Assembly (NCBI RefSeq): GCF_018687815.1 | Contig: NZ_CP061306.1 | Coordinates: forward strand, 1,116,001 to 1,180,000 | Source: Polynucleobacter sp. JS-JIR-II-b4 | Lineage (GTDB): Bacteria > Pseudomonadota > Gammaproteobacteria > Burkholderiales > Burkholderiaceae | Length of the DNA: 64,000 nt | Direction of reading: 5' to 3' | In this document: positions 2,126 through 5,459 of the stretch, one piece after another | How positions within the stretch are numbered: the stretch's first letter is position 1 | Layout of the letters: every line of letters begins with the position of its first letter | Translations under genes and position numbers: made by a program | Notes under the pieces: model-generated | The model's database searches: none | Told to the model about the DNA's origin: nothing | Seen by the model: the letters and a program-made list of their open reading frames with translations, nothing else

Positions 2126-2157
2126 ACAGATGATTCAATGATTAAGGAGTCATCTGT
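2126..2157. repeat. Inverted repeat between the convergent SYLF gene and leuA
   Basis: A perfect 8-bp inverted repeat (ACAGATGA at 2126-2133, TCATCTGT at 2150-2157) spans the convergent gene ends and overlaps the leuA stop region. Neither side has a clear T-run, so it is at best a weak terminator or an mRNA 3'-end hairpin. Confidence 0.35.
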
Positions 2158-3692
2158 GCATTGAGCTTAGCTTGACTCGGATCATGCAATTTGTTCAAAG
2201 CAGATAAATAGGCTTTTGCGGAAGCGGCAATGATGTCTGGGTCGGTACCTACCCCATTCACAATACGACCACCTTTTGCCAAGCGTACAGTAACCTCACC
2301 TTGAGACTGCGTACCTGAAGTAATGGCATTGACAGAATAGAGCAACTGCTCTGCCCCACTCTTAGCAATTTCTTCAATCGCATTCAAACTCGCATCTACT
2401 GGACCATTACCTTCTGCTTCAGAGCTAATCTCTTTATCACCCATGCGGAACGTCACGCGAGATTTAGGGCGCTCGCCAGTTTCGGAATGTTGACTTAAAG
2501 AAATAAATTTATAGTGTTCACCCTCTTCTGCCGCTGCAGAATCTGACATGATGGCAATAATATCTTCATCAAAAATCTCAGACTTTTGGTCAGCTAACGC
2601 TTTAAATCTGGTGAAAGCTTCGTTCAAATCAGCCTCGGCCTCAACAGTAATACCCAATTCTTGCAAGCGCTGTTTAAAGGCGTTACGACCGGATAATTTA
2701 CCCAAAACAATCTTATTAGCAGACCAACCCACATCTTCTGCGCGCATGATTTCATAAGTGTCACGGTTCTTCAAAATACCGTCTTGATGAATGCCTGAAG
2801 TATGTGCGAAGGCATTTGCACCGACGACCGCCTTGTTAGGCTGGACCACAAAGCCGGTGATCTGAGATACCAATTTAGATGCTGGAACAATTTGCGTTGC
2901 ATCGATGCCGCACACCATATCAAAGTAGTCTTTACGAGTGCGCAAAGCCATCACAATTTCTTCTAAAGCAGTATTACCTGCACGCTCGCCCAAGCCATTG
3001 ATCGTGCACTCAATTTGACGTGCTCCGCCAATCTTTACACCCGCCAAGGAATTAGCAACCGCCATTCCCAAGTCGTTATGGCAATGCACTGACCAGACCG
3101 CTTTATCGGAGTTAGGCACGCGGGTTCGCAAAGTCTTAATAAACTCTCCATACAACTCAGGAGTGGCATAACCTACGGTATCAGGAATGTTGATAGTAGA
3201 TGCACCTTCGTTAATAACCGCCTCAACTACCCTACACAAGAAATCCATTTCTGAGCGATAGCCATCCTCTGCAGAAAACTCAATATCTTCAGCTAAGTTA
3301 CGCGCAAAACGGATGGAGCGTTTAGCCTGTTCTAAAACCTCTTCTGGAGACATGCGTAATTTCACGGCCATGTGTAATGGACTTGTTGCCAAGAATGCAT
3401 GAATACGCTTGGCGTTTGCCGCCTGCAATGCATCGGCGGCTCGTGTGATGTCTTTATCATTCGCCCTAGCCAACGAGCAAACAATAGAGTCCTTAACAGC
3501 AGCTGCAACCGCAGATATAGCTTGGAAGTCACCCTCCGAGCTAGCAGCAAAGCCAGCCTCGATCACATCTACTTTAAGACGTTCTAACTGACGAGCAATG
3601 CGTACTTTTTCGTCTTTAGTCATGGATGCGCCAGGTGACTGTTCACCATCTCGCAAGGTGGTATCAAAAATGATTACTTTGTCGCTCATCAC
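2142..3692 (-). CDS. leuA: 2-isopropylmalate synthase
   Basis: LeuA condenses 2-ketoisovalerate with acetyl-CoA, the first committed step of leucine synthesis. The 516 residues contain the N-terminal TIM barrel with [12 protein letters not shown] (about residues 10-21), the metal-site [14 protein letters not shown], the NGLGERAGN loop and [13 protein letters not shown]. The C-terminal LeuA regulatory domain, where leucine feeds back, fills roughly residues 385-510. The start at 3692 reads [10 protein letters not shown]; the second ATG, three bases on, is equally possible. The gene is last in the ilvI-ilvH-ilvC-psd-pssA-leuA row. A leucine-rich leader ORF and a terminator lie just upstream, so transcription attenuation by charged tRNA-Leu is likely. 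Confidence 0.97.
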
Positions 3693-3742
3693 TACTCTCC
3701 GGTTTTAAATACTTCTGAACTTCTTCAGATAACACAATCTCA

Positions 3743-3776
3743 TAAAACAAAAACCCCAGCAATTAGCTGGGGCTGG
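3743..3776 (-). terminator. Attenuator terminator of leuA
   Basis: On the minus strand a perfect 7-bp GC-rich stem (CCCCAGC at 3772-3766, GCTGGGG at 3760-3754, loop TAATT) is followed by TTTTTGTTTT: a strong intrinsic terminator placed about 50 bases before leuA. Its 5' arm, GCCCCA at 3773-3768, can instead pair with TGGGGC at 3832-3827, inside the upstream leader ORF. A second hairpin (GTTAATGA at 3813-3806, TCATTAAC at 3793-3786) lies between the leader stop codon and the terminator. These mutually exclusive pairings are what ribosome-mediated attenuation needs. Confidence 0.8.
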
Positions 3777-3813
3777 TATGTGGTGGTTAATGAATCTGCT
3801 TTATCTCATTAAC

Positions 3814-3891
3814 TCAGGCCTTACCCGCCCCAAGCTTTAGGCTTAGTGCTAGCAGAAGGAGGCCAGTTAAAGGTGAGAAATTCATCAACAT
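3814..3891 (-). CDS. leuL: Leucine-rich leader peptide of the leuA attenuator
   Basis: This 25-codon ORF, too short for routine gene calling, reads MLMNFSPLTG, then four consecutive Leu codons (CTC CTT CTG CTA at 3861-3850), then ALSLKLGAGKA and a stop. Nine of 25 codons are Leu, and they cluster just before the segment that can pair with the terminator arm. Initiation could be at the ATG at 3891 or 3885; the ribosome binding site is weak (GGGG about 14 bases upstream of the first ATG). Expected behaviour: stalling on Leu codons leaves TGGGGC free to form the antiterminator, while a ribosome reaching the stop codon covers it and lets the terminator form. The ORF and structures are visible; the regulatory role is inferred from the enterobacterial leu leader, and the symbol is borrowed from there. 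Confidence 0.75.
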   Translation of the reverse strand: MLMNFSPLTGLLLLALSLKLGAGKA

Positions 3892-3919
3892 GGAATTAAT
3901 ATACCCCAAAAATAGGGAA

Positions 3920-4783
3920 TTAGCTAAAACGTTTACCGCTGAGACGCTCCCAAGCCCAAATTACATAGCCAGAGATGGAATACACCACGAATAAACCAAA
4001 CAGCGTTAAGGGTGGATTTGAGGATATCAAGACAAAGGTCAAGATCATTAAAACCATCACACCAAATGGCACGCGGTAACGGACATCCAGGGCCTTACCA
4101 CTATAAAAACGGGCATTAGAAACCATGGTGAGTCCGGCGTAGACGGCGATAAAGAAGGTAATCCAAGGGATTGCAGTATCGCGAACTGGAATCTTATTGT
4201 CATCAGCCAACCAAATAAAGCCCGCCATTAATGCACCAGCAGCCGGACTTGGTAGTCCTTGAAAAAACTTCTTATCCACTACGCCAGTATTTACATTAAA
4301 GCGGGCTAAACGCAAGGCAGCACCAGCACAGTATGTGAATGCTGCTAACCATCCCCACTTACCCAAATCTTTTAAAGCCCACTCATAAGCAACCAATGCA
4401 GGCGCAACCCCAAATGAAACCATATCAGCAAGAGAATCATACTGCTCACCAAAAGCGCTTTGAGTGTTGGTCATACGGGCTACACGGCCATCCATGCCGT
4501 CTAATACCATTGAAGCAAAGATAGCGATTGCTGCAATCTCAAACTGGTGATTCATTGCGTTCACAATGGCATAGAAGCCGCAAAACAAAGCTGCGGTTGT
4601 AAAGGCATTTGGAAGAAGATAGATACCCTTGCTGCGTAAGCGGGGCTTTTGAGGATGCAACTCCTCTACTTCGTAATCAATACCATCACCTAAGTCTTCA
4701 GCCCATTGATCTTCTGAAGAAGTAACGCGCCTCTGGGAGAGACGGCTTCGGTCAATACGACCACGACGGCGAAATGTAGTCAA
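3920..4783 (-). CDS. pssA: CDP-diacylglycerol-serine O-phosphatidyltransferase
   Basis: PssA makes phosphatidylserine from CDP-diacylglycerol and serine in the inner membrane; Psd, encoded just upstream, decarboxylates the product to phosphatidylethanolamine. The CDP-alcohol phosphotransferase motif is clear: DGMDGRVARMTN followed by FGEQYDSLADMVSFGVAP, with the conserved Asp residues. Several membrane helices follow. I place the start at the TTG at 4783 (TTFRRRGRID), which has GGGAT about 7 bases upstream and lies beyond the psd stop, giving 287 residues. The frame stays open to 4870 inside psd, but that extension looks unlike the family. Confidence 0.9.
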   Translation of the reverse strand: MTTFRRRGRIDRSRLSQRRVTSSEDQWAEDLGDGIDYEVEELHPQKPRLRSKGIYLLPNAFTTAALFCGFYAIVNAMNHQFEIAAIAIFASMVLDGMDGRVARMTNTQSAFGEQYDSLADMVSFGVAPALVAYEWALKDLGKWGWLAAFTYCAGAALRLARFNVNTGVVDKKFFQGLPSPAAGALMAGFIWLADDNKIPVRDTAIPWITFFIAVYAGLTMVSNARFYSGKALDVRYRVPFGVMVLMILTFVLISSNPPLTLFGLFVVYSISGYVIWAWERLSGKRFS

Positions 4784-4811
4784 AGAATATCCCAGTGAAT
4801 AATATTTCGAA

Positions 4812-5459
4812 TCAATCCAAACCAGGCAAACGAGCCAAGGCTGTATTTGTTGCAAATACTTTATCACCAACGCTCACTAGCGGCTCTGCAGTCAGTGGCA
4901 AATAAATATCTACTCGCGAACCAAAGCGAATAAATCCATAGCGCTCACCTGCTTTGAGGCGATCGCCAACATGAATGTAGCAAAGAATACGGCGGGCAAT
5001 TAAGCCAGCAACCTGGACTAAGGTAACTACTTGGCCATTAGCATCGATAACAACGGCGTTACGCTCGTTCTCAGTAGATGCCTTATCCAAATCCGCATTC
5101 ACAAATTTACCCGGGAAGTATTGAATCTCTTTCACCAAGCCATTTACCGCACTACGATTAGAGTGCACATTAAATACGTTCATGAATACGCTGATTTTGA
5201 GCGCTTCACGGCCAGCATATGGATCATTAGTTTTTTCAACGACAACAATCCGGCCATCAGCTGGAGATAAAACAAGATCGCGACCTAAAGCAGGAATACG
5301 CTGCGGGTCACGAAAGAACTGCAGAACAAAGAAAAAAATGATCCAAAGAGGCCATGACCAAGCTATCCCACCTAAATAGTGAACTAGCAAAGTCAATGCC
5401 CCCACTAACGCTAAATACGGCCAACCTTCTTTCGCAATAATGGGGTGCGGATACATCAT
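4812..5459 (-). CDS. psd: Phosphatidylserine decarboxylase proenzyme
   Basis: Psd converts phosphatidylserine to phosphatidylethanolamine using a pyruvoyl group formed by self-cleavage at an internal Ser. At 215 residues this is the short form of the family. The cleavage motif appears near the C-terminus as [11 protein letters not shown] (Gly-Ser), and [16 protein letters not shown] carries the conserved His residues. Two hydrophobic segments near the N-terminus (about residues 14-47) anchor the protein in the inner membrane. It lies between ilvC and pssA on the same strand with short gaps, so it is probably co-transcribed with the ilv genes. Confidence 0.95.

Follow-up and report, generated by a model that had tools for sequence, protein, structure and literature searches.

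The question raised by this locus is whether leuA, encoding 2-isopropylmalate synthase, is placed under the control of leucine by a transcription attenuator in Polynucleobacter sp. JS-JIR-II-b4 and, if so, how its leader peptide is translated. The stretch analyzed, hereafter the window, consists of 64,000 nucleotides (64 kb) of contig NZ_CP061306.1, and the element lies on its minus strand, to which all the coordinates given below refer, between pssA and leuA. A sequence-only reading of the window had proposed there a leucine attenuator within an operon. The interpretation reached here is that leuA is very probably preceded by a ribosome-mediated transcription attenuator, tying its transcription to charged Leu-tRNA, with a leader peptide predicted to start at the very 5′ end of its own RNA (leaderless). 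The sensor would be above all the tRNA reading the rare codon CUA. From its position in front of leuA, the element is expected to control a leucine-synthesis gene.

Leader peptide and terminator

The leader peptide open reading frame (ORF; 3814..3891) has 25 codons (MLMNFSPLTGLLLLALSLKLGAGKA plus stop), with its ATG at 3891-3889 and its TGA at 3816-3814. Nine of the 25 codons are for Leu, four of them forming the run CTC CTT CTG CTA (3850..3861, read from sequence), and additional Leu codons are located at 3846-3844, 3840-3838 and 3834-3832. The leader is separated from the structural gene by an intrinsic terminator (3744..3774), AGCCCCAGC-TAATT-GCTGGGGTT, recognized from the sequence, with a stem of nine pairs (3774-3752) and then a U-rich tract (3753-3744). 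Both the Leu-rich 25-codon leader and the perfect terminator had been described in the sequence-only reading, and every coordinate given there was correct when the minus strand was read again.

The window contains four perfect terminators according to the script criteria. One of them is preceded by an ORF with four consecutive Leu codons and at least six bases of complementarity, while none of 60 dinucleotide shuffles yielded such a case. The fold of 3740-3900 amounted to -55.4 kcal/mol, with z = -4.39 relative to 200 shuffles. Searches with three leaders gave no leader peptide family above cut-off in Pfam or NCBIfam.

Conservation and RNA stems within Polynucleobacter

The search for leuA covered 101 Polynucleobacter genomes, taken from a larger group, and the upstream region was read in the 99 with its 5′ end; the two left out were G027 (distant match only) and G074 (5′ end missing from the match). 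In each of these 99 loci, leuA is preceded by a Leu-rich leader and a CCCCAG-type terminator. Every leader contained at least three Leu in five codons, the best five-codon stretch holding five in 14 loci, four in 77 and three in 8. Leader length ranged from 22 to 29 codons, often in whole-codon steps, as with a four-codon insert ahead of the final Leu codons in the run. In locus L104 a base was lost downstream of the Leu run and the frame ends later, with the Leu codons intact. Pairing was studied in an alignment (A1) of 81 of the 99 loci, with 79 distinct rows; it omits 18 loci, L157-L173 and L178, which belong to the most diverged. The Leu run is not strictly invariant in A1: Leu occupies its second codon in 76 of 79 ungapped loci, the third in 78 of 81 and the fourth in 80 of 81.

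Segment 1 (CUAAGC, 3841..3846) pairs with GCUUGG at 3835-3830, forming a 1:2 hairpin with 100% of cells paired and with one pair changed from AU to GC on both sides in 11 of the 79 distinct rows. This hairpin, which the earlier reading had missed, completes what would be a classical three-way switch. Segment 2 (AGCUUGGGGCGGGU, 3823..3836), recognized by its pairing with segment 3 and in the nascent fold, provides the 5′ strand of the antiterminator, and segment 3 (ACCAGCCCCAGCU, 3765..3777), recognized by its pairing in A1, is common to antiterminator and terminator. The antiterminator joins 3836-3823 with 3777-3765 through 12 pairs, with one bulge and one mismatch, and 93.2% of cells are paired, versus at most 45% when it is slid. 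It contains the pairing of TGGGGC (3832-3827) with GCCCCA (3773-3768) noted earlier and extends further. Antiterminator and terminator are mutually exclusive, the strand of the former lying in or just after the leader ORF; Comamonadaceae-type loci, considered below, are mixed in this respect. The sequence-only reading had made its claim dependent on conserved Leu codons and stem pairing in relatives, and the sequence half of that test, now run, went in its favor, with leader and terminator kept in 99 of 99 loci and the antiterminator paired in 93% of cells of the 81 aligned ones.

Between the stop codon and the terminator there is another hairpin (post-stop hairpin, 3786..3813), also absent from the earlier reading, in which GUUAAUGA (3813-3806) pairs with UCAUUAAC (3793-3786). 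In the 81 loci of A1, it has 92.9% of cells paired and changes on both sides at two of its eight pairs; as modeled, it nests within the antiterminator. Taken jointly, the 1:2, post-stop and terminator stems have 97.3% of cells paired, versus at most 52% when slid, and none of 500 shuffles matches either their covariation score or their count of doubly changed cells, it being kept in mind that kinship among A1 rows can inflate double-change counts. Another candidate, the long helix in the minimum-energy fold of the entire leader, in which UUAACUGGCC pairs with GGCCUGAGUUAA, was rejected, with 70% of cells paired and no excess with respect to shuffles.

Codon 19, in the loop of the 1:2 hairpin, shows eight different residues, while the stem codons are nearly constant; selection thus seems to act on the RNA and the Leu codons more than on the peptide. 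This is relevant to whether a function in trans could also be exerted by the leader peptide or by the short terminated RNA, as reported for Sinorhizobium trpL in the available text of PMC7298713. A short mRNA would be expected whenever leucine is plentiful, and the peptide is well conserved over its 3′ half (LALSLxLGAG) among the 81 loci of A1. However, not only codon 19 but also the N-terminal part varies, and RNA pairing explains the remaining conservation, so that an additional action in trans appears quite improbable.

Codon choice in the leaders

The codon CTA makes up 3.2% of the 187 Leu codons in seven ORFs of the window (the start of one of them, pssA, being uncertain) versus 33% of the 856 in the leaders of the genus. 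In 42 leaders of other Burkholderiales it reaches 45% of 199, versus 0.5% of 1497 in the matching leuA genes, and in 33 leaders from the set of Polynucleobacter family genera it amounts to 50% of 224. Part of the excess in Polynucleobacter may serve the 1:2 stem. Since it recurs in lineages with other sequences, the excess argues for rare-codon sensing through CTA.

These data also bear on another explanation of the hairpin, namely that it is the plain terminator of an ilv-psd-pssA operon and that the ORF is incidental. The hairpin does close that series of genes and resembles a strong terminator, but a plain terminator accounts neither for the conserved Leu codons and the CTA bias nor for the antiterminator complementarity and the 1:2 hairpin found across many species, and this explanation is very improbable.

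Predicted leaderless start

A predicted -10 hexamer, TATATT (3898..3903), is located 6 nt upstream of the leader ATG. With the ORF picked by Leu density and place only, a -10-like hexamer lies 6 nt upstream of the in-frame leader ATG in 86 genus loci and 7 nt in 11 (97 of 99), the spacing in the two remaining loci being 8 and 9 nt; as a control, among the 465 other ATGs in these regions, 9 have such a hexamer at that spacing. An earlier choice of the genus ORFs had used the -10 box in part, and the start in L168, L169 and L172 had been found by it; the choice made without the box gave the identical ORF in 99 of 99 loci and again 97 of 99 with the hexamer. Another in-frame ATG occurs further upstream in 22 of the 97. 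Shine-Dalgarno-like 4-mers precede 13% of the genus leaders, versus 94% of the leuA genes. A spacing of 6 or 7 nt also holds for 93% of 42 leaders from other Burkholderiales, although there the hexamer helped to pick the ORF. Because of the hexamer at 6–7 nt and the rarity of Shine-Dalgarno-like 4-mers, the leader is predicted to be leaderless and to have its own promoter, a feature that the earlier reading had missed. Leaderless mRNAs are described in papers on transcription start sites in Burkholderia and Cupriavidus (available text of PMC4603805 and PMC7563307), and in Burkholderia cenocepacia they have a TA-rich motif immediately upstream (PMC4603805, as far as available). The term leuA does not occur in the main text, tables apart, of these two papers.

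The same attenuator could nevertheless work without being leaderless, if the leader were translated from a long ilv-psd-pssA transcript by ribosomes reinitiating after pssA, with TATATT a coincidence or a minor promoter. In support of this, the pssA stop codon (3920) is near the leader ATG, at a distance of 28 nt, and some genus leaders, the 13% mentioned, do have a Shine-Dalgarno-like 4-mer. It is worth noting, moreover, that no match to 9 of 12 sigma-70 promoter positions was found within 3600-4100 and no good -35 box at the leader, which counts against a promoter of its own. Reinitiation is opposed by the spacing of the hexamer, both in the genus in comparison with other ATGs and in the other Burkholderiales leaders (with the reservation made above), and by some family loci in which, by eye, the leader is preceded by a long gap with a terminator-like hairpin, and by a -35-like box (derived consensus TTGCRC). 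Reinitiation is thus rather unlikely, and the leaderless start is preferred.

Distribution in Burkholderiales and pairing across lineages

Concerning the loci outside Polynucleobacter, 59 of them (L022-L080), which were part of the best 80 of 582 matches, were examined with a script rule that recognized a leader in 42, and 37 of these had also a terminator. In another set, 40 loci of family genera were hand-picked among the matches listed for 200 genomes (193 with a match), and the -10-ATG pattern, which demands no Leu codons, was present in 33 of them, three belonging to Polynucleobacter. In three loci of genus g11 the ORF at the leader position has few or scattered Leu codons. The sequence-only reading had suggested that the arrangement might be unreported in a Polynucleobacter-like genome. 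No such report was recognized by title or opening of the abstract in literature searches with little access to subscription papers. The arrangement is not specific to one genome and recurs in Burkholderiales.

Several variants were observed. Five family genera, g10, g12, g13, g20 and g25 (L185-L187, L192-L198, L204-L208, L214-L216), have leaders rich in CTA (e.g., ..LAGAPLRALALARLPR*), preceded at 6–7 nt by a -10 box and followed, by eye, by a conserved hairpin (CGCCAGCGGTGGCG, slightly variable) that lacks an adjoining U-run; control could perhaps be Rho-dependent or translational in them. In L048 (Noviherbaspirillum), L056 (a metagenome-assembled genome of Oxalobacteraceae) and L064 (Undibacterium), leaders ending in LLLLVR* or similar precede leuA and the script detected no terminator. 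In L188 and in two Pandoraea loci (L022 and L023), inspection by eye shows that the ATG with its -10 box is retained, as is an ORF ending in ..AR*, and that the Leu run is gone; the leader is possibly decayed or re-purposed. In L217 (genome G188, of the genus studied here) leuA is broken, with eight stops within the match, and the leader and antiterminator look intact by eye, one base of the terminator stem differing and still pairing as G-U.

The pairing of segments 2 and 3 is found again in several lineages with changed letters: GGGGC/GCCCC in most Polynucleobacter, GGGGU/ACCCC in the diverged Polynucleobacter group L157-L166 plus L178, and, for family genera g3 and g24, CAGGUCGGG/CCCGGCCUG in the majority of loci. 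Leaders were paired with their own or with foreign terminator arms, using up to 15 loci per group in a three-way swap and up to 25 in a swap of seven groups. Polynucleobacter leaders gave -21.8 kcal/mol with their own arms versus -11.9 and -18.7 with foreign ones, and the leaders of g3, g5 and g24 (nine loci) gave -22.5 versus -8.6 and -10.5, it being noted that the groups differ in G+C and that the energies carry no G+C control. With seven groups, the own arm was preferred by four. In five of the groups, about 5% or fewer of the shuffled leader tails paired equally well.

In Comamonadaceae-type loci (e.g., L053, L058, L072, L050 and L062), a segment between the terminator and leuA complements the terminator loop and 3′ arm. 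The pairings CCCGCAACG/CGTTGCGGG, ACCTGCAAC/GTTGCAGGT and ACCCGCAG/CTGCGGGT show compensating changes. A downstream pairing with a GCA core, of 6 to 10 perfect pairs, was found in 17 of 37 loci, with shuffle fractions of 0 to 0.17, and was absent in the other 20. The segment may be a fifth one, holding the read-through RNA open.

Folding and proposed mechanism

Folding runs were made with assumed ribosome footprints. A ribosome halted at the fourth Leu codon, with RNA made up to 3764, allowed the 2:3 antiterminator enclosing the post-stop hairpin to form (-29.5 kcal/mol). With the ribosome on the stop codon, segment 2 was covered and the terminator was formed. With no ribosome, the leader folded on itself and the terminator was formed.

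The scheme that we infer, including the start site, the ribosome positions, the kinetics and the response to leucine, would be as follows. RNA polymerase would start at the leader ATG, or about a base from it, and a ribosome would load on the bare 5′ end. When Leu-tRNA is short, the ribosome would stall in the Leu run, covering segment 1; the post-stop hairpin would then be enclosed by the pairing of segment 2 (3836-3823) and segment 3 (3777-3765), the terminator would come too late, and leuA would be transcribed. When leucine is plentiful, the ribosome would reach the stop codon and either cover segment 2 together with the post-stop hairpin's 5′ arm or depart, allowing the 1:2 hairpin to form. 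Segment 3 would pair with segment 4, and transcription would end ahead of leuA.

Several observations weigh against this interpretation. Once the full terminator has been made, equilibrium favors it even with a stalled ribosome (0.84 versus 0.16 for the antiterminator), so the switch must act kinetically, by timing. In A1, the antiterminator is nearly invariant; its only doubly changed pair is a marginal one, left unpaired in 51 of 79 rows, and the covariation score of the antiterminator (0.010) is lower than those of two slid versions (0.023 and 0.020). For this reason, the support for the antiterminator within A1 is complementarity, not covariation. Seven core pairs of the terminator are invariant in the 79 distinct rows; in the joint analysis of the 1:2, post-stop and terminator stems, 434 of 500 shuffles reached their number of doubly changed pairs (3), and 424 of 500 their number of further pair types (11). 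In the larger Comamonadaceae-type group, the own arms gave -13.6 kcal/mol and foreign ones -13.3 and -16.9, so that the own arms were not preferred; in the swap of seven groups, this one and two small Polynucleobacter groups, i.e., three of seven, paired with a foreign arm at least as well as with their own. Shuffled leader tails paired equally well in 17% and 24% of cases in two non-Polynucleobacter (Comamonadaceae-type) groups. Finally, the script rule recognized no leader in 17 of the 59 non-Polynucleobacter loci, one of them with just 138 nt upstream, and 7 of the 40 family loci lacked the -10-ATG leader.

Gene neighborhood

The gene order on the minus strand, from NCBIfam profile matches and the ORF list, is ilvB-ilvN-ilvC-psd-pssA-[leader]-leuA, in agreement with the placement between pssA and leuA in the sequence-only reading. 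The pssA gene, for CDP-diacylglycerol–serine O-phosphatidyltransferase, occupies 3920..4870 as a mechanical ORF (stop codon 3922-3920), with TIGR00473 above cut-off over 3920-4663; its true start is probably further in. The leuA gene (2142..3689, ATG at 3689) has matches to NF002087 and TIGR00973 above cut-off and is preceded by the Shine-Dalgarno sequence GGAG (3697..3700, read from sequence). The proposal that the attenuator sits inside an operon stood as far as the co-oriented ilv-psd-pssA genes upstream are concerned; it has to be modified in that the leader is predicted to be transcribed from a promoter of its own and to lack a 5′ untranslated region (UTR). This leads to a tentative extension, which is possible but on the doubtful side: only RNA from the leader's own promoter would be regulated by leucine, while read-through from ilv-psd-pssA, with no Shine-Dalgarno sequence at the leader ATG, would be terminated by default. 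The hairpin would then be a fixed operon end and at the same time a regulated gate, tuned by the rarest Leu codon.

Comparison with known systems

The Rfam leucine leader family of enterobacteria, whose accession we take to be RF00512, gave no covariance-model match at this locus, either at the gathering threshold or when E was allowed to reach 10; the five matches obtained in the latter case were judged to be due to chance. Nor was any other Rfam family matched at gathering; likewise, 13 loci gave just five below-threshold matches, also judged to be due to chance. T-box leaders were absent from the covariance-model matches, and so was Polynucleobacter-1 RNA (RF01718; available text of PMC2864571), which had been considered as a candidate. 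No title or opening of an abstract was found that reports a betaproteobacterial leuA attenuator, in searches to which subscription literature was mostly closed, so that an earlier notice is possible; the accessible part of PMC4842269 holds no leader information.

The data indicate that attenuation control of leuA by leucine is a long-kept feature of Burkholderiales, one that gave no match in Rfam, and the sensing peptide is predicted to be translated without Shine-Dalgarno sequence or 5′ UTR. The element is a natural, conserved system for asking how leaderless initiation is coupled to transcription, and why the rarest codon serves as sensor. For gene finders, it offers a signature: -10 box, 6–7 nt, ATG, CTA-rich ORF and terminator.

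Compared to the enterobacterial leuL attenuator, the Polynucleobacter element is similar in overall build, and differs in having no Rfam match, a predicted leaderless start, an extra hairpin between stop codon and terminator, and leuA placed after pssA. The LEU element of Actinobacteria, as described in the available text of PMC1262725, is also located upstream of leuA and contains Leu codons, but it forms a pseudoknot, and the Leu codons are paired with the Shine-Dalgarno sequence of leuA in its base stem. Other Actinobacteria, compared by description rather than by sequence, are represented by the ilvBNC and leuA leaders of Corynebacterium glutamicum, the ilvBNC leader being formed without a ribosome binding site (PMC4046766, as far as available). 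LeuL of Campylobacter jejuni resembles the present leader as a translated Leu leader peptide of another lineage, again by description, and is not stated to be leaderless in the available part of PMC11955535. A likeness in the predicted start is seen in trpL of Sinorhizobium meliloti, the attenuated RNA of which begins at the leader peptide ATG (PMC7298713, available text); it differs in responding to tryptophan and in belonging to another class of Proteobacteria. As far as the literature searches reach, the novelty lies in the lineage, in a leucine leader predicted there to be leaderless, and in the hairpin after the stop codon.
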